NCBI GenBank assembly: GCA_903874275.1
Contig: CAIQRS010000146.1
Location: 1 to 64,000 of the forward strand
Source: an uncultured Anaeromyxobacter sp.
GTDB taxonomy: Bacteria; Myxococcota; Myxococcia; Myxococcales; Anaeromyxobacteraceae
Direction of reading: 5' to 3'
Length of the DNA stretch: 64,000 nucleotides
A program made the position numbers and the translations under genes. This document shows, piece after piece, positions 3,365-36,114 of the stretch. The notes beneath the pieces were generated by a model. It saw nothing but the letters and a program-made list of their open reading frames with translations, ran no database searches and was not told where the DNA came from. The first letter of the stretch is position 1; every line of letters begins with the position of its first letter.

Positions 3365-3482
3365 CGGCAAATCGTCACCTGCGCGCCGCGTGAACTCCAC
3401 GCGCTCCGCCGAGGATCGGCGCCGGTGCTGCTCCGGGGCGGTGGCGGGTCGGTGGGGAAGGAGCCTTCCTCGAGGAGAAGAG

Positions 3483-9915: not shown

Positions 9916-10190
9916 TCGCCACGGCGACGAGGCCGACCGAGAACCATCCGATCCGGCTCCAGGCCTCCGAAGAAGACCGCCGTGGAGTTTGCAGGCAGGA
10001 GCCCGGCGAGTACCGCGGCCAGGCAGAGCGGGGCGTCGATGCGACCCTGTGCCACGAGCATTCCCATCGAGACGACGACGATCTCCTCTGGGAAGGAGGG
10101 CAGGACGCACCCCTGCAGCAGGATCCAGCTCGCGGCGAGCGCCACCTGCCACTGCGGGAGGTCGGCGACCCGGGCGAGCAGTTCATTCAC
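9857..10190 (-). pseudogene. DedA-family membrane protein remnant with an internal deletion
   Basis: N-terminal VNELLARVADLPQWQVALAASWILLQGCVLPSFPEEIVVVSMGMLVAQGRIDAPLCLAAVLAGLLPANSTAVFF then jumps frame to SSEAWSRIGWFSVGLVAVAITVACVSRLV, matching the N- and C-terminal parts of the intact copy at 22441-23046. Confidence 0.85.
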
Positions 10191-10259: not shown

Positions 10260-10502
10260 TCAGGGGGCGGCCTCGAGCTTCCGGAAGGGCTCGGCATGCA
10301 GGAAGCCCGGGCAAGGATCGCAGGTCCAGCTTCTCCATCCGCTGCGGAACGCCACCTCCAGGCAACGCTCGTAGGCCGGGCACCAGAGACTTCGCCTCCG
10401 CCCCATCTCCTCGGGTGACAGCGCCGCCGACAGCTCGGAGGGCCCCGCCAGGCGCGGGTCTACGGCGAGCCGGAGGCGGGTGCGCAGGTCGATGATCTTC
10501 AT
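10260..10502 (-). CDS. Small four-Cys protein (RRSLWCPAYE family, copy 1)
   Basis: MKIIDLRTRLRLAVDPRLAGPSELSAALSPEEMGRRRSLWCPAYERCLEVAFRSGWRSWTCDPCPGFLHAEPFRKLEAAP; paralogue at 23055-23321 in the same order. Confidence 0.75.
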   Translation of the reverse strand: MKIIDLRTRLRLAVDPRLAGPSELSAALSPEEMGRRRSLWCPAYERCLEVAFRSGWRSWTCDPCPGFLHAEPFRKLEAAP

Positions 10503-10515
10503 GGCGCGAGGCGGC

Positions 10516-10758
10516 TCAGGCCGGGGTTCCGGCCGCGGCTTCCGATGGCGCGGATGTCTCCGGCGGCGACGACCGCTGGACCCGGTCCACCTCCGCGACG
10601 CCCGCCGACCAGGCATCGGAGGTCGAGGAATGCCACCCCCGGAGGAGCACCCCGTCCACGGCGACCACCCACTTCCGGCCACCGCCGAACACCTGGAGGA
10701 CGTGCCGTCCAATCTGGAACATGTTGGCCATGGGTGCCTCTCGGGTCTCGCGGGACAT
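10516..10758 (-). CDS. Small uncharacterised protein (VDGVL family, copy A)
   Basis: MANMFQIGRHVLQVFGGGRKWVVAVDGVLLRGWHSSTSDAWSAGVAEVDRV; three paralogues in the window. Start may be the ATG at 10731. Confidence 0.78.
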   Translation of the reverse strand: MSRETREAPMANMFQIGRHVLQVFGGGRKWVVAVDGVLLRGWHSSTSDAWSAGVAEVDRVQRSSPPETSAPSEAAAGTPA

Positions 10759-10794
10759 GCGCGCATGCTCGGGGAGGAGGGCGGCGCCGCGGCG

Positions 10795-10814
10795 GCGCTC
10801 CGGCGACGATTCGG
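10795..10814 (-). promoter_or_regulatory. Shared upstream motif (gene-sense CCGAATCGTCGCCGGAGCGC), possible Pho-box variant
   Basis: Near-identical block upstream of 14078(-), 23556(-), 25656(-) and 34555(+) genes. Confidence 0.5.
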
Positions 10815-10888: not shown

Positions 10889-11026
10889 ATGGACCCAGTC
10901 CAACCGGATCGGCATCTCCTGCTCCTCGCCCTGCTGGTGTGGGGCTTCCTCACGGTCATCGGCGTGATCATCTCCCGCTTCATGAGCCACCGGTCCGGGC
11001 AGGCCCCCAGGCGGCGAGGCCCATGA
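10889..11026 (+). CDS. Single-TM micropeptide
   Basis: GGAGGG RBS then MDPVQPDRHLLLLALLVWGFLTVIGVIISRFMSHRSGQAPRRRGP; stop overlaps next ATG (ATGA). Confidence 0.55.
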   Translation: MDPVQPDRHLLLLALLVWGFLTVIGVIISRFMSHRSGQAPRRRGP

Positions 11027-11232
11027 GCAACATCTTCATCGTCGGCACCCACGTGTTCAACGTGTTCGTCAGCGGCGCCGGCTGGGCGATGTCCGTCGAC
11101 GGGGTCCTCGTCGAAGGCACCTTTCCGACGAGGAGCGATGCCTGGGAAGCCGGGCTCGTCTTGGTGGAACGAGCCGACCGGCTCGCGGAGGAGTCCCGGC
11201 GGCGGGGTTCCGCGAAAGACCCTCACACCTGA
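11023..11232 (+). CDS. Small uncharacterised protein (VDGVL family, copy C)
   Basis: MSNIFIVGTHVFNVFVSGAGWAMSVDGVLVEGTFPTRSDAWEAGLVLVERADRLAEE; near-identical N-terminus to the 34555 copy. Confidence 0.78.
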   Translation: MSNIFIVGTHVFNVFVSGAGWAMSVDGVLVEGTFPTRSDAWEAGLVLVERADRLAEESRRRGSAKDPHT

Positions 11233-11236
11233 GGTC

Positions 11237-11325: not shown

Positions 11326-11412
11326 TCAAATGTAACTCAGGGTGAGTGCGACAGGCGAGGTCCATAAGGGAGTCCTCATCTGGTTCCGCTTCGCCTCGCG
11401 CTGGCCACACAG

Positions 11413-11432
11413 CGTCACCGACACTTCACCGC
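11413..11432 (+). promoter_or_regulatory. Pho-box-like direct repeat CGTCACC-GACA-CTTCACC
   Basis: 7-bp repeats, 4-bp spacer (11-bp period), upstream of alkaline phosphatase; conserved at 33120-33141 before the second copy. Confidence 0.6.
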
Positions 11433-11513: not shown

Positions 11514-12716
11514 ATGAGTGAAGGTCAGGCAGGATTCCTCTCCGCCGCTGGATGGCAGCGGCTGGCGGCCGTCTCCGCCATCGCCCTCGCGGCCGCCGGG
11601 GGCGCCCCGGCGCGCGCCGACGGCGGCGAGAAGGGGCACGCGAAGAACGTCATCATCATGGTCCCGGACGGCATGGGGCTCGCCGACGTGACCGCCACCC
11701 GCATCTACAAGCACGGGCTCGACGGGTTGCTCAACTTCGAGACGCTGGAGCACATCGGCTACCAGAGGACCTACTCGGCCAACAGCGTCATCACCGACTC
11801 CGCCCCGGCGGCGTCGGCCTGGGCCTGCGGCGAGAAGTTCAACAACGGCGAGATCTGCTTCCACGGCGACGGGCGGGCCTTCAAGCCCAGCATCCTCGAG
11901 CTGGCCCGGAAGCAGGGGAAGGCCACCGCGCTCGTCGCCACCTCCACCATCACCCACGCCACGCCGGCCTCCTTCGGCGCGCACGTGGTCAACCGCAACT
12001 GCGAGAACGAGATCGCCCGTCAGTACATCCAGGTGACCGGGGTCGACCTGCTGCTCGGCAGCGGCGTCGACAAGTTCACGTCGGTCAAGGCCGACGCCTG
12101 CGGGACGGTGGGCGACCTCATCCCCCAGGCGAAGGCCAAGGGTTACGCCGTGGCGTACGACAAGGCGGGGCTGGACGCCGCGGTCGCCGCCGGTGGCAAG
12201 AAGATCCTCGGCCTCTTCGGCAACGGCGGGACGGTTCCCGAGTACCTCCGCACCCCCGCCACGACCGAGCCGCACCTCCCCGAGATGGCCGCCGCGGCGC
12301 TGAAGGTCGTGGAGAAGAACCGCAGCGGCTTCTTCCTCATGGTGGAGGGGTCCCAGGTCGACTGGGCCAACCACGCCAAGGACTACCCCTACCAGCTCGG
12401 CGAGATGCTCGCCTTCGACGACGCCGTGAAGGTCGTCCGGGACTGGATCGACGCCGACGAGGACCGCCGGGAGAACACGTTGCTCATCGTCGTCGCCGAC
12501 CACGACACCGGCGGCTTCGCCATCAACGGGCCGCAAACGGCCCTCCTCAAGGCGGGCGAGAAGGTCGAAGCGGGCTGGACGACCGGCAACCACACCGGCG
12601 TCGACACGCTCATCTGGAGCCAGGGGCCGGGCAGCAAGGCGCTGACCCGCGCCATCGACAACACCGAGATCTACGGGGTGATGGTCAAGGCCCTGGGCGA
12701 CGCGAAGGACGAGTAG
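11514..12716 (+). CDS. Alkaline phosphatase (PhoA family), copy 1
   Basis: Signal peptide; NVIIMVPDGMGLADVTATR, YSANSVITDSAPAASAWACGEKFNNGE (active-site Ser), LMVEGSQVDWANHAKDYPY, VVADHDTGGFAINGP, WTTGNHTGVDTLIW. Confidence 0.95.
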   Translation: MSEGQAGFLSAAGWQRLAAVSAIALAAAGGAPARADGGEKGHAKNVIIMVPDGMGLADVTATRIYKHGLDGLLNFETLEHIGYQRTYSANSVITDSAPAASAWACGEKFNNGEICFHGDGRAFKPSILELARKQGKATALVATSTITHATPASFGAHVVNRNCENEIARQYIQVTGVDLLLGSGVDKFTSVKADACGTVGDLIPQAKAKGYAVAYDKAGLDAAVAAGGKKILGLFGNGGTVPEYLRTPATTEPHLPEMAAAALKVVEKNRSGFFLMVEGSQVDWANHAKDYPYQLGEMLAFDDAVKVVRDWIDADEDRRENTLLIVVADHDTGGFAINGPQTALLKAGEKVEAGWTTGNHTGVDTLIWSQGPGSKALTRAIDNTEIYGVMVKALGDAKDE

Positions 12717-22440: not shown

Positions 22441-23046
22441 CTACGCCGCCCGGAGCGCGACCACGGCCCGACGGCCGACCAAGACCGCGAGGGCTCCACC
22501 CACGAGCGCGGCGGAGGCCCATCCGATCCGGGCCCAGGCCTCAGCAGCCGTCGCGCCCTCCCCGAGGCGCGAGCCGAGCCAGAGGAGGAGAGGGACCTGG
22601 ACGCAGGCGGCCGCGGCGTCGAGCGCGAAGAAGCGGGCGACGCCGAAGCCGGAGAGGCCGGTCGCCAGGTAGACCGGGCCGCGGACGAAGGGCACGAAGC
22701 GGGTGACCACCACGAGGAGCGGTCCGTGGCGCCGCAGGGCCTCGGAGGCCGCCGCGACCCGGGGGGAGGAGAGGGTCCGTCCCAGGAATCCGGCGTTCCC
22801 GATCCGCCGACGGGCCAGGCTCCCGATGAACACAGCCGCGGAGTTGGCGGGGAGGAGCCCGGCCAGGACCGCCGCCATGGCGAGCGGGGCCGAGATGCGC
22901 CCCTGCGCCACCAGCATGCCCATGGTGGTGGTCACGATCTCCTCGGGCAGCGACGGGACGACGCAGGCCTGCAAGAGCAGCCAGGTCGCGGCGAGCGCGA
23001 TCTGCCACTGGGGAAGCTCGGAGATCCGGGCGACGAGGTCGTCCAC
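22441..23046 (-). CDS. DedA-family (SNARE-associated) membrane protein, intact copy
   Basis: PSLPEEIVTTTMGMLVAQGRISAPLAMAAVLAGLLPANSAAVFIGSLARRRIG, VVVTRFVPFVRGPVYLATGLSGF; GTG start at 23046. Confidence 0.87.
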   Translation of the reverse strand: MDDLVARISELPQWQIALAATWLLLQACVVPSLPEEIVTTTMGMLVAQGRISAPLAMAAVLAGLLPANSAAVFIGSLARRRIGNAGFLGRTLSSPRVAAASEALRRHGPLLVVVTRFVPFVRGPVYLATGLSGFGVARFFALDAAAACVQVPLLLWLGSRLGEGATAAEAWARIGWASAALVGGALAVLVGRRAVVALRAA

Positions 23047-23054
23047 GCTGCCGA

Positions 23055-23321
23055 TCAGCGTAGCACCGGCCGAGGGGCGTCGCCGGGCGAGCCGTCTCCC
23101 GGCCGGGCGTGGAACGAATGGGCCGCCACCCGCCTCCGGTGGGGCCCGGCTTCCTGGAAGAGGACGCAGTGCTCGCAGGTCCAGCTGCGCCAGCCGGCCC
23201 GGAGGGCAAGCATGAGGCAGCTCTCGTAGGCCGGGCACCACAGGCTGCGCCGCTGGTCGATCTCCTCCGGCTCGAGCGACTTCGCGAGCTGCGAGGGACC
23301 CGGTCCCGGTGTCGTCGTCAT
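23055..23321 (-). CDS. Small four-Cys protein (RRSLWCPAYE family, copy 2)
   Basis: MTTTPGPGPSQLAKSLEPEEIDQRRSLWCPAYESCLMLALRAGWRSWTCEHCVLFQEAGPHRR. Confidence 0.77.
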   Translation of the reverse strand: MTTTPGPGPSQLAKSLEPEEIDQRRSLWCPAYESCLMLALRAGWRSWTCEHCVLFQEAGPHRRRVAAHSFHARPGDGSPGDAPRPVLR

Positions 23322-23328
23322 GGAAGCC

Positions 23329-23556
23329 TCACGATTTCCGGCTGCCCGCCAGGGCCAGGGCAGGCTCCGCGGCCGGGGACATGATCCCGAGCCGGTCCAC
23401 CTCTGCGACCCCCGCCGACCAGGCGTCCGCCGACGTCGAGTGCCAGCCGCGGAGGAGCACGCCGTCCACGGCGACCACCCAGCGCCCCTGGTTCCCGAAG
23501 ACCTGGAGCACGTGCCGTCCGACCTGGAAGATGCTCTTCATCTGCACCGTCTTCAT
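23329..23556 (-). CDS. Small uncharacterised protein (VDGVL family, copy B)
   Basis: MKSIFQVGRHVLQVFGNQGRWVVAVDGVLLRGWHSTSADAWSAGVAEVDRLG. Confidence 0.8.
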   Translation of the reverse strand: MKTVQMKSIFQVGRHVLQVFGNQGRWVVAVDGVLLRGWHSTSADAWSAGVAEVDRLGIMSPAAEPALALAGSRKS

Positions 23557-23616
23557 CGCTGCCTCGTGGTTCGTGGGTGGGAGCCGATCCTGCGGGGAGT
23601 GCGTGGCGACGGCGGG

Positions 23617-23635
23617 GCGCTCCGGCGACGATTGG
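23617..23635 (-). promoter_or_regulatory. Shared upstream motif (gene-sense CCAATCGTCGCCGGAGCGC)
   Basis: Upstream of 23556(-); same motif as at 10795. Confidence 0.5.
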
Positions 23636-23645
23636 AGAAGGCGAA

Positions 23646-23675
23646 AGCCCCCCCGGCCAGTGGGCCGGGAGGGCT
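23646..23675. terminator. Hairpin AGCCCCCCCGGCC..GGCCGGGAGGGCT
   Basis: Near-perfect inverted repeat just downstream of the PhoX stop (minus strand). Confidence 0.65.
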
Positions 23676-23706
23676 CGTCTCACCTGGATGCGGTCCCGAT
23701 GCGAGC

Positions 23707-25656
23707 CTACCGGATGGCCGGAAGGGCTCCGTTCGCCGTGCCGACGTAGCCGATGGCGGCCTTCTTGCGGCCGCCCCACCTGGCGTCGATGGCGTCGAGG
23801 ACGTTCTTCTCGGAGAGGATCACCGCCCCGGTGGCGTCCTTCACGCCCTTGAACGTCCCCACCTGGCTCTGCTCGGCCGGGTGCTGGAAGTTGCTCATGA
23901 CGTAGGAGAAGCCGTTGGCGTCGTCCACCACCTGGAGCCCCGTGGCCTCGGCGTACATGGGGACCGAGAGGATGCGGGAGAGCTTCCGGGTGTCCACGTT
24001 GAAGGCCCAGACGTAGTTGTTGTTCCGGCGGCTGGTGTCCTCGCCGACGAAGAGGGTCCGCATGCCCTCGGAGAACTTGATGTTGTCCGGGCCACAGACC
24101 TTGTCCTGCAGGCAGCGGTTGCCCTCGGCGTCCCGCGTGCCGCCCAGCCAGCCTCCGAGCAGCTCGGGGATGCTCACCATGGTGGTGGCCACGAGACGGC
24201 TCGGGATGGGCCGGCCGCCCGTGTCGCGCTGCCCGGCCGCGAGGGCGAGCTCGTAGATGGCGCCGCCGTCGTTCTTGGCCAGGCGGACGTCGTCCTGCGG
24301 GTCGGTGGCGCTCGTCAGCATGCCGCCCTCGATGCGCGAGATCACGACGTAGGCCTTCTTGTCCACCTCGTTGTGGGAGATGCCCTCCATCTTGGCGAAC
24401 TCGGTGGTGGCCCCGAGAAGCGCGGCGTAGCGGCGGGTCTCGAAGAACGCGGCGGCCTTCTCCATGCCCGGCTTGAGGCGCAGCCACTCGGTGCCGGTGT
24501 AGGTCTTCACCTTCTTGAAGGAGGGGTGGAGCGGATCGACGTTGGAGACGTCGAAGATGTCGGCGAAACGGATGCCGCGGTCGGCGAGCGCCTGCAGCTC
24601 CTCGTCCTCGGCGTGGCCGAGCCGGATCCAGGACAGGGTGGCGGCGCCGCCGCTCAGGTCGCTCGTCTGGGTCCACTTGCCCGCGTAGAGGGTGCCTTCG
24701 GAGAGCTCGCCCTTCTCGTCGGCGACGAACAGGAAGAGGCCGGTGTAGGCGCCGTCGTCGCCCATGTAGACGGTGCGGCCGTCGGGCAGGACGTCGGCCA
24801 GCTCGCGCGCGAAGCGGCCGAGCGCCCGGTGCTTCACGACCGAGGTCTTGCCGTCCTTGCGGACCTTCACCTCGGGCACGAGCCCGTAGTCGTAGGCGTT
24901 CGCCGTGGCGGCGTTGCCGAACCAGGCGCGGCTGAAGCCGTCGATGTCGGTGCCGTCGTCGGAGTCAGCGGCCTTGGGCGCGACGCCCTGGCGGACCTTC
25001 GCGTCGGGCTCGTACTCCTCGGAGGAGAGGTGCGTGTTCCAGGGAGTGAGCGAGGAGGCGCAGTGGATCCACCCGCCCTTGACGCCCGAGAAGTCGACCC
25101 GATCGTAGCTCGTGAGCTTGAGCGCGCCCGAGCGCTTGTCCTGGTCGAGGCGGGAGAGCCCGGTGGGGGCGGGGAGCCTGGACCAGTAGCTGTCGTAGGT
25201 GGTGACCGCCGGGTAGTTGGGCGGCAGTTCCCGGTACTCGAACTGGGTCACGAGGGCGAGGCCGTTGGCGTGGCGGGGGTCGGCGGCGCGGAGCCCCGGG
25301 ATCACCATCAGGGAGTTGCCGTCCGGGGCGTCGGAGGCCAGCTGGCCGAAGCTGTCGGTGATGGCGATGCCGCGCGAGTCGACGAAGCCGCCGACCACGT
25401 TGCCCCCGACCACGTCGGTCGTGTCGGCGAGCTTGTGGAACTTGAGGTCGAGGGTCTCCGACTTTCCGTTACGGTAGGTGACGATCACCTTGGCCGCGGT
25501 GTAGACGTCGGCCCGCTCGTCCACGGTCGCCGGAGCCGGCATCCCGACGAACTCGACCGACGAGACCTTGGCGTCGTGCGCACGGGCTGTGGGTGCTGCG
25601 AGGAAGGTGAGCCCCGCGGTGAGCGCGGCCACGGATCGAATCACTCTGGTTGCCAT
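23707..25656 (-). CDS. PhoX-type alkaline phosphatase (DUF839)
   Basis: Signal peptide; CASSLTPWNTHLSSEEYEPDA, VYMGDDGAYTGLFLFVAD, GPDNIKFSEGMRTLFVGEDTSRRNNNYVWAFNV. Confidence 0.85.
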   Translation of the reverse strand: MATRVIRSVAALTAGLTFLAAPTARAHDAKVSSVEFVGMPAPATVDERADVYTAAKVIVTYRNGKSETLDLKFHKLADTTDVVGGNVVGGFVDSRGIAITDSFGQLASDAPDGNSLMVIPGLRAADPRHANGLALVTQFEYRELPPNYPAVTTYDSYWSRLPAPTGLSRLDQDKRSGALKLTSYDRVDFSGVKGGWIHCASSLTPWNTHLSSEEYEPDAKVRQGVAPKAADSDDGTDIDGFSRAWFGNAATANAYDYGLVPEVKVRKDGKTSVVKHRALGRFARELADVLPDGRTVYMGDDGAYTGLFLFVADEKGELSEGTLYAGKWTQTSDLSGGAATLSWIRLGHAEDEELQALADRGIRFADIFDVSNVDPLHPSFKKVKTYTGTEWLRLKPGMEKAAAFFETRRYAALLGATTEFAKMEGISHNEVDKKAYVVISRIEGGMLTSATDPQDDVRLAKNDGGAIYELALAAGQRDTGGRPIPSRLVATTMVSIPELLGGWLGGTRDAEGNRCLQDKVCGPDNIKFSEGMRTLFVGEDTSRRNNNYVWAFNVDTRKLSRILSVPMYAEATGLQVVDDANGFSYVMSNFQHPAEQSQVGTFKGVKDATGAVILSEKNVLDAIDARWGGRKKAAIGYVGTANGALPAIR

Positions 25657-32888: not shown

Positions 32889-33119
32889 GTGCAGACCTCC
32901 GGAATGGCGCGCCCGGGAGGGAGCGCGCCGGGGATGGGTGTTGCTACGGGTGAAGGTCGCATCCTCGTCGCCGAAGGTGGCGCGCGACGTCCGGAGTCGC
33001 AAACAGTTCGTGTCGCTCCCCCGGTCCGTCGGTCAATTGTTACCGTGGGTGAAGTAGACCGGGAACATCCATGAATGAACCCTCATCCGTATCCCCGCCG
33101 CCGCAGATCGGCCACGGAG

Positions 33120-33141
33120 CGTCACGTACACTTCACCGCCG
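33120..33141 (+). promoter_or_regulatory. Pho-box-like CGTCACG-TACA-CTTCACC
   Basis: Same layout as at 11413, upstream of alkaline phosphatase 2. Confidence 0.6.
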
Positions 33142-33223: not shown

Positions 33224-34423
33224 ATGAGTGAAATCAGCGGCAGGTTCCTGGCAGGGATTCACTGGCGGCGGCTGGCGGCGGTCTCGGCGATCGTCCTCGC
33301 GTCGGCGTGCGCCTTCACGGCGCGGGCCCAGGGGGCCGGCGAAGGCAAGGCCCGGAACATCATCGTCATGGTCCCGGACGGCATGGGGCTCGCCGACGTC
33401 ACCGCCACCCGCATCCACCGGCACGGCCTGGACGGGATGCTGAGCTTCGAGACCCTGGAGCACATCGGCTACCAGAAGACCTACTCGGCCAACAGCGTCA
33501 TCACCGACTCCGCCCCGGCCGCCTCCGCCTGGGCCTGCGGCGAGAAGTTCAACAACGGCGAGATCTGCTTCCACGGCGACGGCCGTCCCTTCAAGCCCAG
33601 CATCCTCGAGCTGGCGAAGAAGCAGGGGAAGGCCACCGGCCTGGTGGCCACCTCCACCATCACCCACGCCACGCCGGCCTCCTTCGGCGCCCACGTGGTC
33701 AACCGCAACTGCGAGAACGAGATCGCCCGCCAGTACATCCAGGTGACCCGTCCCGACGTGATCCTCGGCAGCGGAGTGAGCAAGTTCCGGTCGGTGGCGG
33801 CCGACGCCTGCGGGGCGGTGGGCGACCTCATCCCCGAGGCGCAGGCAAAGGGCTACGCCGTGGCCTACGACAAGGCCGGGATGGACGCCGCGGTCGCCGG
33901 CGGCGGCCGCAAGATCCTCGGCCTCTTCGGCAACGGCGGGACGGTCCCCGAGTACCTCCGCACGCCGGCCACCACCGAGCCGCACCTCCCGGAGATGACC
34001 ACGGCGGCCCTGGAGGTCCTCGGCAAGAGCCGGCACGGCTTCTTCCTCATGGTGGAAGGCTCCCAGGTCGACTGGGCCAACCACGCCAAGGACTACCCCT
34101 ACCAGCTGGGCGAGATGCTCGCCTTCGACGACGCCGTGAAGGTCGTCCGCGCCTGGATCGACGCCGACGGGGACCGCAGGGAGAACACCCTGCTCATCGT
34201 CGTCGCCGACCACGACACCGGCGGCTTCGCCATCAACGGCCCGCAGTCGGCGCTGCTCCAGGCGGGCGGCACGGTCGAGGCGGGCTGGACGACCGGGAAC
34301 CACACCGGGGTCGATACGCTCATCTGGAGCGCGGGCCCCGGCAGCAAGGCGCTGACGCGCGCCATCGACAACACCGAGATCTACGGGGTCATGGTCAAGG
34401 CCCTGGGCGACGCGAAGGAATAG
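33224..34423 (+). CDS. Alkaline phosphatase (PhoA family), copy 2
   Basis: Highly similar to the 11514-12716 product over its length (NSVITDSAPAASAWACGEKFNNGEICFHGDGR...). Confidence 0.95.
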   Translation: MSEISGRFLAGIHWRRLAAVSAIVLASACAFTARAQGAGEGKARNIIVMVPDGMGLADVTATRIHRHGLDGMLSFETLEHIGYQKTYSANSVITDSAPAASAWACGEKFNNGEICFHGDGRPFKPSILELAKKQGKATGLVATSTITHATPASFGAHVVNRNCENEIARQYIQVTRPDVILGSGVSKFRSVAADACGAVGDLIPEAQAKGYAVAYDKAGMDAAVAGGGRKILGLFGNGGTVPEYLRTPATTEPHLPEMTTAALEVLGKSRHGFFLMVEGSQVDWANHAKDYPYQLGEMLAFDDAVKVVRAWIDADGDRRENTLLIVVADHDTGGFAINGPQSALLQAGGTVEAGWTTGNHTGVDTLIWSAGPGSKALTRAIDNTEIYGVMVKALGDAKE

Positions 34424-34483: not shown

Positions 34484-34506
34484 GTGAATCGTCGCCGGAC
34501 CGACCC
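34484..34506 (+). promoter_or_regulatory. Shared upstream motif GAATCGTCGCCGGACCG
   Basis: Upstream of VDGVL copy D; same block as upstream of other family members. Confidence 0.5.
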
Positions 34507-34554: not shown

Positions 34555-34791
34555 ATGAGCAACATCTTCATCGTCGGAGACCAGGTGTTCAACGTCTTCG
34601 AAGGCGGATCGGGCTGGCGGATCTCGGTGAACGGGGTCCTCATGGAAGAATCGTACCTGACCCGGAGCGACGCCTGGATGGCCGGCGTCGCCGAGGTGGA
34701 CCGGCTGGCGCGTCACTTCGCCGGACCACGGGAGGAGGGGGACGGCGCCCCGCGAGACGACCGTGGGCGCGACGTATCTCACCCGGAGTGA
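34555..34791 (+). CDS. Small uncharacterised protein (VDGVL family, copy D)
   Basis: MSNIFIVGDQVFNVFEGGSGWRISVNGVLMEESYLTRSDAWMAGVAEVDRLARHF. Confidence 0.8.
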   Translation: MSNIFIVGDQVFNVFEGGSGWRISVNGVLMEESYLTRSDAWMAGVAEVDRLARHFAGPREEGDGAPRDDRGRDVSHPE

Positions 34792-34986
34792 CAGGCGAAG
34801 ACGGCCGCGGGCAAGCTGTCACCGGAACGGCGAGGAGCGGACCCGGACCGTCCCCGGGATCGCAACACGGCGTCGGTAGTGTCCAGACGCGTCCCGCTCC
34901 GGGGCGCCGGACCCTGCGATGGATCTCCTGCCGCCCTTCGCCGGTGAACCGCCCTCCCGCCCGCGGCAGGACCGACGGAGAACCAA

Positions 34987-36114
34987 GTGAACCGAGAGAG
35001 AAGACTCTTCATCCCCATCCTGGGCGCCATGCTGCTCGCCGCCCTGGCCCCCGCCTCGTCCGCCGCCGCGCAGGAGCGCGGAGACCTGGACGAGGCGCAC
35101 CGCCTGCCTCGCTTCGACCGCGCCGGGCAGCTCAAGATCGTCCAGTTCACCGACACCCAGGACGGGCCGAACACCGATCCCCGCACCGTGGCCCTCATCC
35201 GCGCCGTGCTCGACGATCAGAAGCCCGACCTGGTGGTCTTCACCGGCGACCAGCTCACCAGCGCGAGCAGGACGCCCGACGACGTGCGCAAGGCCATCGA
35301 CAACATCGTGCGCCCGGTGGACGAGCGGCGCATCCCCTGGCTGGTGGCCTTCGGGAACCACGACGAGGACCACACCCCGAGGAGCGGGCTGGACGAGGCG
35401 TCGATGCTCCGGATCTACATGTCCTACCCGTACAACGTGAACCGGGTCGGTCCCGAGGGCATCACCGGCACGGGCAACATGAACCTGCTCGTCCGCGGGC
35501 ACCACTCCGACGCCCCCGTGTTCGCCGTCTGGGCGATCGACTCCGGCCGCTACGCGCCCGCCAAGATCGCCGGGCAGGTCCTCGACGAGGACGCCCTGCT
35601 CGGGTGGGGCTGGATGCCGACCTGGGACTGGATCAAGCACGACCAGGTGAACTGGTACACGCGCACCTCGGAGAAGCTGGAGCGGGAGCACGGCCGCAAG
35701 GTCCCGTCGCTCATGTTCTTCCACATCCCGCTGCACGAGTTCCGCACCATGTACGACAACGACGCCTACAAGCGCGCCCACCCCGAGCTCGGGCTCGTTC
35801 CCCAGCACGGCGTGGTCGGCGAGCGGAACGAGGACGAGTGCCCGGGACCGTTCAACAGCGGGCTCTTCGCCGCCGCGCTCGAGCGCGGTGACGTGAAGGG
35901 CATCTTCGTCGGCCACGACCACGTGAACGACTACGTGGGCAACTACTTCGGGATCCTGCTCGGCTACTCGGCCAACAGCGGATTCGCCACCTATGGCCTG
36001 GGCGGCCCGGAGAACCACCGCATGCGCGGGGCCCGGGTCTTCCAGGTCGACGAGCGGGACCCCGCCAAGGTGGTCACGCGCATGGTCCGTGCGATCGACT
36101 ACGGCATCCAGTAG
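34987..36114 (+). CDS. Secreted calcineurin-like metallophosphatase, intact copy
   Basis: GTG start, signal peptide; IVQFTDTQDG, VVFTGDQL, VAFGNHDEDH, MFFHIP, GHDHVNDYVG. Confidence 0.9.
   Translation: MNRERRLFIPILGAMLLAALAPASSAAAQERGDLDEAHRLPRFDRAGQLKIVQFTDTQDGPNTDPRTVALIRAVLDDQKPDLVVFTGDQLTSASRTPDDVRKAIDNIVRPVDERRIPWLVAFGNHDEDHTPRSGLDEASMLRIYMSYPYNVNRVGPEGITGTGNMNLLVRGHHSDAPVFAVWAIDSGRYAPAKIAGQVLDEDALLGWGWMPTWDWIKHDQVNWYTRTSEKLEREHGRKVPSLMFFHIPLHEFRTMYDNDAYKRAHPELGLVPQHGVVGERNEDECPGPFNSGLFAAALERGDVKGIFVGHDHVNDYVGNYFGILLGYSANSGFATYGLGGPENHRMRGARVFQVDERDPAKVVTRMVRAIDYGIQ

Follow-up and report, generated by a model that had tools for sequence, protein, structure and literature searches.

Two short open reading frames in the window, by which we mean the whole 64,000-nucleotide stretch of Anaeromyxobacter DNA that was analysed, are genuine genes. 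They belong to an ancient family of small soluble Myxococcota proteins that has no name and is here called C4. The family is apparently undescribed: it is found in none of Pfam, NCBIfam, the PDB and PADLOC, and literature searches gave no description of it. In a six-frame scan of the 64 kb window, C-x5-C-x13-C-x2-C has exactly two matches, both at the frames reported in a preliminary description of this DNA, whose coordinates, minus strand and spacing proved exact. The two genes are:

23055..23321, minus strand: C4 gene of the 23 kb cassette, 88 aa, MTTTPGPGPSQLAKSLEPEEIDQRRSLWCPAYESCLMLALRAGWRSWTCEHCVLFQ..., Cys at residues 29, 35, 49 and 52
10260..10502, minus strand: C4 gene of the 10 kb cassette, 80 aa, MKIIDLRTRLRLAVDPRLAGPSELSAALSPEEMGRRRSLWCPAYERCLEVAFRSGWRSWTCDPCPGF..., 87.5% identical to its ortholog in the sister genome G001 (L039)

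From two sequences alone, that description picked out a real and apparently undescribed family. Its idea of zinc is a reasonable proposal, while a zinc ribbon in the strict sense is unsupported.

That these are genes is shown by codon-level constraint. Between the 10 kb copy and its G001 ortholog dN/dS is 0.22; the ratio stays below 1 in the gene's own frame alone, the other two sense frames being above 1.7, and the differences are distributed over codon positions 1/2/3 as 6/5/17 (chi-square p 0.009). The possibility, raised at the outset, of a spurious ORF or shadow frame is therefore rejected by both dN/dS and codon-position counts, as selection is seen in the C4 reading frame. In the 23 kb gene, a GAGG resembling a Shine-Dalgarno sequence stands 6 nt before the ATG. 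The two window paralogs compared with each other give a dN/dS of 0.41, and core orthologs (see below) give 0.03-0.13, both within genus and within family. One more distant pair gives 0.54 (dN 0.245, dS 0.45), which we infer to reflect an underestimated dS, caused by extreme third-position GC, and not relaxed constraint.

Across the family seven residues are invariant, R, C, Y, C, W, C, C, all within less than 80 aa; this is taken from alignments A1 and A3, and the members of A3 are largely regex-selected. The family pattern is R-x3-C-x2-Y-x2-C-[LIV]-x12-C-x2-C with an invariant Trp five residues ahead of the third Cys, and it is present in both window ORFs. The almost invariant core RRSLWCPAYE...GWRSWTC proposed earlier holds for the genus-level clade, but family-wide only the seven residues remain. 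The spacing of the Cys is kept between taxonomic classes when the sequences of family members are compared; the other-class members read AEIYRIYLLRPGARPRKH...HRHVNCLCYADCLHFVARSPWHGFSCDRCPAF. In two members from one genome (L209 and L220) the middle spacer is shorter, 11, and one of the two is without the Trp. In profile-profile comparison the window clade, the core clade and the other-class clade are homologous (probability 98-99%, E 1e-13 to 1e-17), and for the window proteins against the core ortholog hhalign gives a probability of 98.9% and E 1.3e-17.

When 99 related genomes were searched with one window protein, 94 contained relatives. Of 195 genomes from the phylum searched with the profile, 150 contain the family: 136/145 in the order, 2/2 in the rest of the class and 12/48 in the rest of Myxococcota, the genomes without a match being partly incomplete assemblies. 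Often a genome holds 2-4 paralogs. Named records include Anaeromyxobacter, Myxococcus xanthus, Corallococcus, Pyxidicoccus, Archangium and Hyalangium. Since almost every genome of the order carries it, C4 probably binds metal and, small as it is, is probably of importance to these bacteria.

This near-universal distribution also bears on whether the two ORFs could be artefacts, spurious frames of a high-GC genome. The window does hold 289 mechanically called ORFs with a length of 60 aa or more, but the distribution, the frame-specific constraint and the profile-profile homology between classes refute this explanation, and we give it practically no credence.

Outside Myxococcota, absence of the family rests on two peptide patterns run over 84,980 species and on the empty family libraries. 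All matches to the patterns are myxobacterial or unplaced delta-type, with the exception of one labelled Comamonas. That record (L148, BNCN01000004.1, Comamonas sp. KCTC 72670) contains a core C4 gene whose score and identity equal those of Myxococcus records; the genome is probably that of a myxobacterium under a wrong label. No match to the family came from plasmid, phage or viral collections, and a mobile-element origin was rejected for this reason. A role as a defence protein was likewise rejected, there being no PADLOC match.

The tree of the family is based on 61 members and few columns; many forks are unresolved and the root is arbitrary. It contains a core clade, mostly with a single copy per genome throughout the order, whose representative in the source genome lies at G000:C142:92682-92894 (contig C142). 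Further, there is a Myxococcaceae clade that adjoins pyrG-kdsA and an ABC transporter, and a second Myxococcaceae clade that is divergently oriented from the gene for the lipoprotein TraC. A C4 paralog lies divergent from the outer-membrane-exchange gene traC in four Myxococcaceae genomes (L060, L055, L069 and L076). The window pair, which are divergent, genus-level paralogs, form a separate group together with a member from G002. This group is placed beside the other-class members with support 97/85, and may therefore go back to an old duplication and not to a recent invention.

The highest Kyte-Doolittle average over any 19-mer is 0.67, that is, there is no hydrophobic membrane or signal segment. 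Therefore the protein is probably cytosolic, and the four invariant Cys are likelier to be metal ligands than disulfides. In cytosolic mini-proteins, sets of four invariant Cys usually serve as ligands of Zn2+ or of an Fe-S cluster. The charge is nearly neutral (K+R 9-13, D+E 7-10).

Two AF2 runs, with 37 and 50 sequences, reach pLDDT 77 and 79; only the Cys core, with blocks of 90-93, is modelled with confidence. The order of elements is a strand, a short helix, a helix with the Tyr and the second Cys, a short strand at the Trp-aromatic stretch and then C-x2-C. Taken together with the low dN/dS values and the conserved spacing, the core pLDDT of about 90 bears out the earlier proposal of a folded four-Cys mini-domain under purifying selection.

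Known families give no significant match. The window proteins have no Pfam family above its curated cut-off, zinc-ribbon and zinc-finger families included. The best Pfam scores of any member, Copper-fist (E 0.028) and UBZ_FAAP20 (E 0.0019, in one distant member), are not significant. Nor is the similarity to the eukaryotic ribosomal protein eL43 (L37a; E 0.16), which scores best when the family profile is compared with PDB sequences. Foldseek against the PDB finds no match at E<=0.001, which, with two very small models of moderate confidence, is weak evidence. Hence the other possibility raised at the outset, that this is an already characterised zinc protein, is not borne out by the family, PDB sequence or fold searches. 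A classical zinc ribbon has two CxxC knuckles. In C4, by contrast, a helix begins within the first pair, C-x5-C, and there was no match to any structure or family of zinc ribbons; for these reasons the zinc-ribbon reading is not established. The eL43 ribbon can be aligned with C4 over the Cys pairs, but the spacing differs.

We hold it, if only just, to be probable that C4 is a cytosolic mini-domain in which four Cys hold zinc, and that it serves as an adaptor in protein interactions; the zinc, the adaptor role and the link to the envelope discussed below are what we infer. Against this reading, C-x5-C differs from a classical zinc knuckle, and no zinc family of the PDB or Pfam is matched significantly. 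The four Cys would most likely bind one Zn2+. This ion would staple the short helix C-x2-Y-x2-C-L-x2-A to the turn that ends in W-x-[SG]-[FW]-x-C-x2-C, giving a minimal folded domain, whose invariant Arg and Trp, together with the variable tails, could then dock on partner proteins. The order's core ortholog would have a housekeeping role, and extra copies would have been recruited next to envelope, surface or signalling systems, the window copies beside the VDGVL/DedA cassette in a phosphatase-rich island.

There is some precedent for such a role. MJ0042 fingers have two CxxC knuckles, and ZitP is a membrane protein. Unlike these, C4 has C-x5-C as its first pair, stands alone, lacks a membrane segment and has no Pfam match; by sequence it is not of the MJ0042 type. 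Like the MJ0042-type proteins it is a small bacterial four-Cys module, and in ZitP of Caulobacter and at the N-terminus of AgmX of Myxococcus such modules, which tie zinc binding to protein partners, are regulators of polarity and motility (PMC5182063).

It is less probable, though a possibility to be reckoned with, that the four Cys hold an Fe-S cluster or form a thiol switch. As a small cytosolic protein of the WhiB-like kind, C4 would then sense redox state or O2/NO. This would agree with the four invariant Cys, with an invariant Trp and Tyr near the ligands, and with the occurrence of C4 in Anaeromyxobacter as well as in aerobic Myxococcus lineages. WhiB-like proteins are small and have four Cys and a conserved Trp, with C-x2-C followed by C-x5-C. 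C4 shares the four Cys and the Trp; however, its spacings are in the reverse order of the WhiB pattern, it has no Pfam or NCBIfam match, and no Fe-S family was matched by sequence.

The second zinc module of the eukaryotic nuclear receptors, C-x5-C-x9-C-x2-C, has nearly the same order and spacing of Cys pairs as C4; however, the loop in C4 is 13 and not 9, and there is no significant sequence or fold match. This resemblance could point to a small nucleic-acid-binding zinc finger that regulates transcription or translation, as could the conserved Arg, the conserved basic YATQRR tail that ends the core clade and the weak, non-significant profile similarity to eL43 and to the copper-fist DNA-binding domain. 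On the other hand, the charge is nearly neutral, the basic tail is missing in the window clade and in most other-class members, and every eL43 or copper-fist match is below significance, and we find this explanation rather improbable.

The gene neighbours of C4 vary by clade. The core ortholog lies between genes for a TPR-SLT lytic transglycosylase and a CAP/YkwD-domain protein at about 20 of 23 loci. It is on the strand opposite to both of them and is therefore probably its own transcript. In taxonomic family f17 the C4 gene is just upstream of pilT on the same strand (4 genomes), and in family f11 a PilZ-DnaJ gene and a gene resembling dnaK lie downstream of it (4/7). What these settings share, a bearing on the cell envelope and on surface motility, is suggestive. 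However, since the neighbours differ between clades and also include pyrG and an ABC transporter, it may be a coincidence in genomes rich in such genes.

In the window the neighbours of the two C4 genes are:

23329..23556, minus strand: VDGVL gene, 75 aa, upstream in the 23 kb cassette, its stop 7 nt before the C4 start
22441..23046, minus strand: intact DedA/VTT-domain membrane protein, GTG start (PF09335, E 3.8e-08)
10516..10758, minus strand: second copy of the VDGVL gene, upstream of the 10 kb C4 gene
9801..10190, minus strand: broken DedA copy, in which an intact N-terminal part is followed by a deletion of about 282 bp compared with G001 and by a frameshift

The intact DedA begins 8 nt after the C4 stop, and given these gaps of 7 and 8 nt, VDGVL, C4 and DedA at 23 kb look like one unit. 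The nearest named family of this DedA is the undecaprenyl phosphate transporter UptA, with a score under the UptA cut-off. For VDGVL itself neither Pfam nor NCBIfam has a family. The ortholog of the 10 kb cassette is at G001:C85, with flanking DNA 90-93% identical; the cassette adjoins a response regulator and a histidine kinase, the kinase being identified in G001. The DedA counterpart is intact in G001, and the broken copy has a 15-bp repeat/overlap at the deletion junction, near 9952-9966. Despite the broken DedA, the 10 kb C4 gene is still intact. The placement of both C4 genes between VDGVL and DedA noted earlier is thus correct in position, but one of the two DedA genes is a pseudogene, and the setting is limited to the window pair and the G001 ortholog and is not shared by the wider family. 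It is genus-specific, and the key to C4 function probably lies elsewhere.

Both cassettes sit in a phosphatase-rich island, and both are preceded by the 18-nt element AATCGTCGCCGGAGCGCC, 36-60 nt upstream of the VDGVL gene. The sites of this element and the other features of the island are:

23616..23633, minus strand: AATCGTCGCCGGAGCGCC, 60 nt before the VDGVL start of the 23 kb cassette
10794..10811, minus strand: AATCGTCGCCGGAGCGCC, 0 mismatches, before the 10 kb cassette
34487-34504, plus strand: AATCGTCGCCGGAGCGCC, 50-70 nt ahead of the VDGVL gene at 34555
3370-3387, plus strand: AATCGTCGCCGGAGCGCC, ahead of a small unannotated ORF near 3473
11514-12716 and 33224-34423: two PhoA paralogs
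11412-11432 and 33119-33139, plus strand: repeat GCGTCACNNNNACTTCACCGC upstream of both PhoA genes, resembling a Pho box
23707-25656: PhoX
34987-36114: metallophosphoesterase
11024-11233 and 34555-34794, plus strand: further VDGVL genes

With at most two mismatches the element has four sites in the whole 5.07 Mb genome, all inside the window and three of them preceding VDGVL genes. This suggests a shared promoter or operator that was copied along with the cassette. The two PhoA genes, PhoX and the metallophosphoesterase look like a phosphate-scavenging island. Between the PhoX stop and VDGVL, at about 23650-23680, there is a terminator-like hairpin, read by eye, and it is therefore suggested that the cassette is separate from the PhoX transcript.

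The close packing of the genes at 23 kb, where the gaps are 7-8 nt, and the same order in G001, together with the shared upstream element and the nearby PhoX and PhoA genes, could also mean that the window pair are partners of DedA. The cassette would then be one phosphate-responsive unit, in which C4 regulates a C55-P/lipid flippase under phosphate starvation. However, at 10 kb the C4 ORF is intact next to a broken DedA, the family is widespread without DedA or VDGVL, and PhoX appears to have its own terminator ahead of the cassette; we doubt that this explanation is correct.

Near-universality in the order and seven invariant residues in less than 80 aa make it very likely that C4 is important, in an order that includes Myxococcus xanthus and for a protein that no family library names. 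A bolder extension, which we consider unlikely, is that C4 proteins are phylum-wide undescribed metal- or cluster-binding adaptors, each paralog serving a different surface machine: remodelling of the cell wall, outer membrane exchange, retraction of type IV pili, c-di-GMP/chaperone signalling or the phosphate response. If so, adaptor paralogs would be a shared regulatory currency of the social, predatory myxobacteria. The window copy in its phosphate-linked cassette is one place to look for a condition-dependent role.

VDGVL proteins, of about 75 aa, are themselves repeated. Matches are found in 10 of the 24 genomes of the taxonomic family, with none in genus g4; the source genome has six and the sister genome G001 nine. 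The copies in the window are close to alkaline phosphatases.
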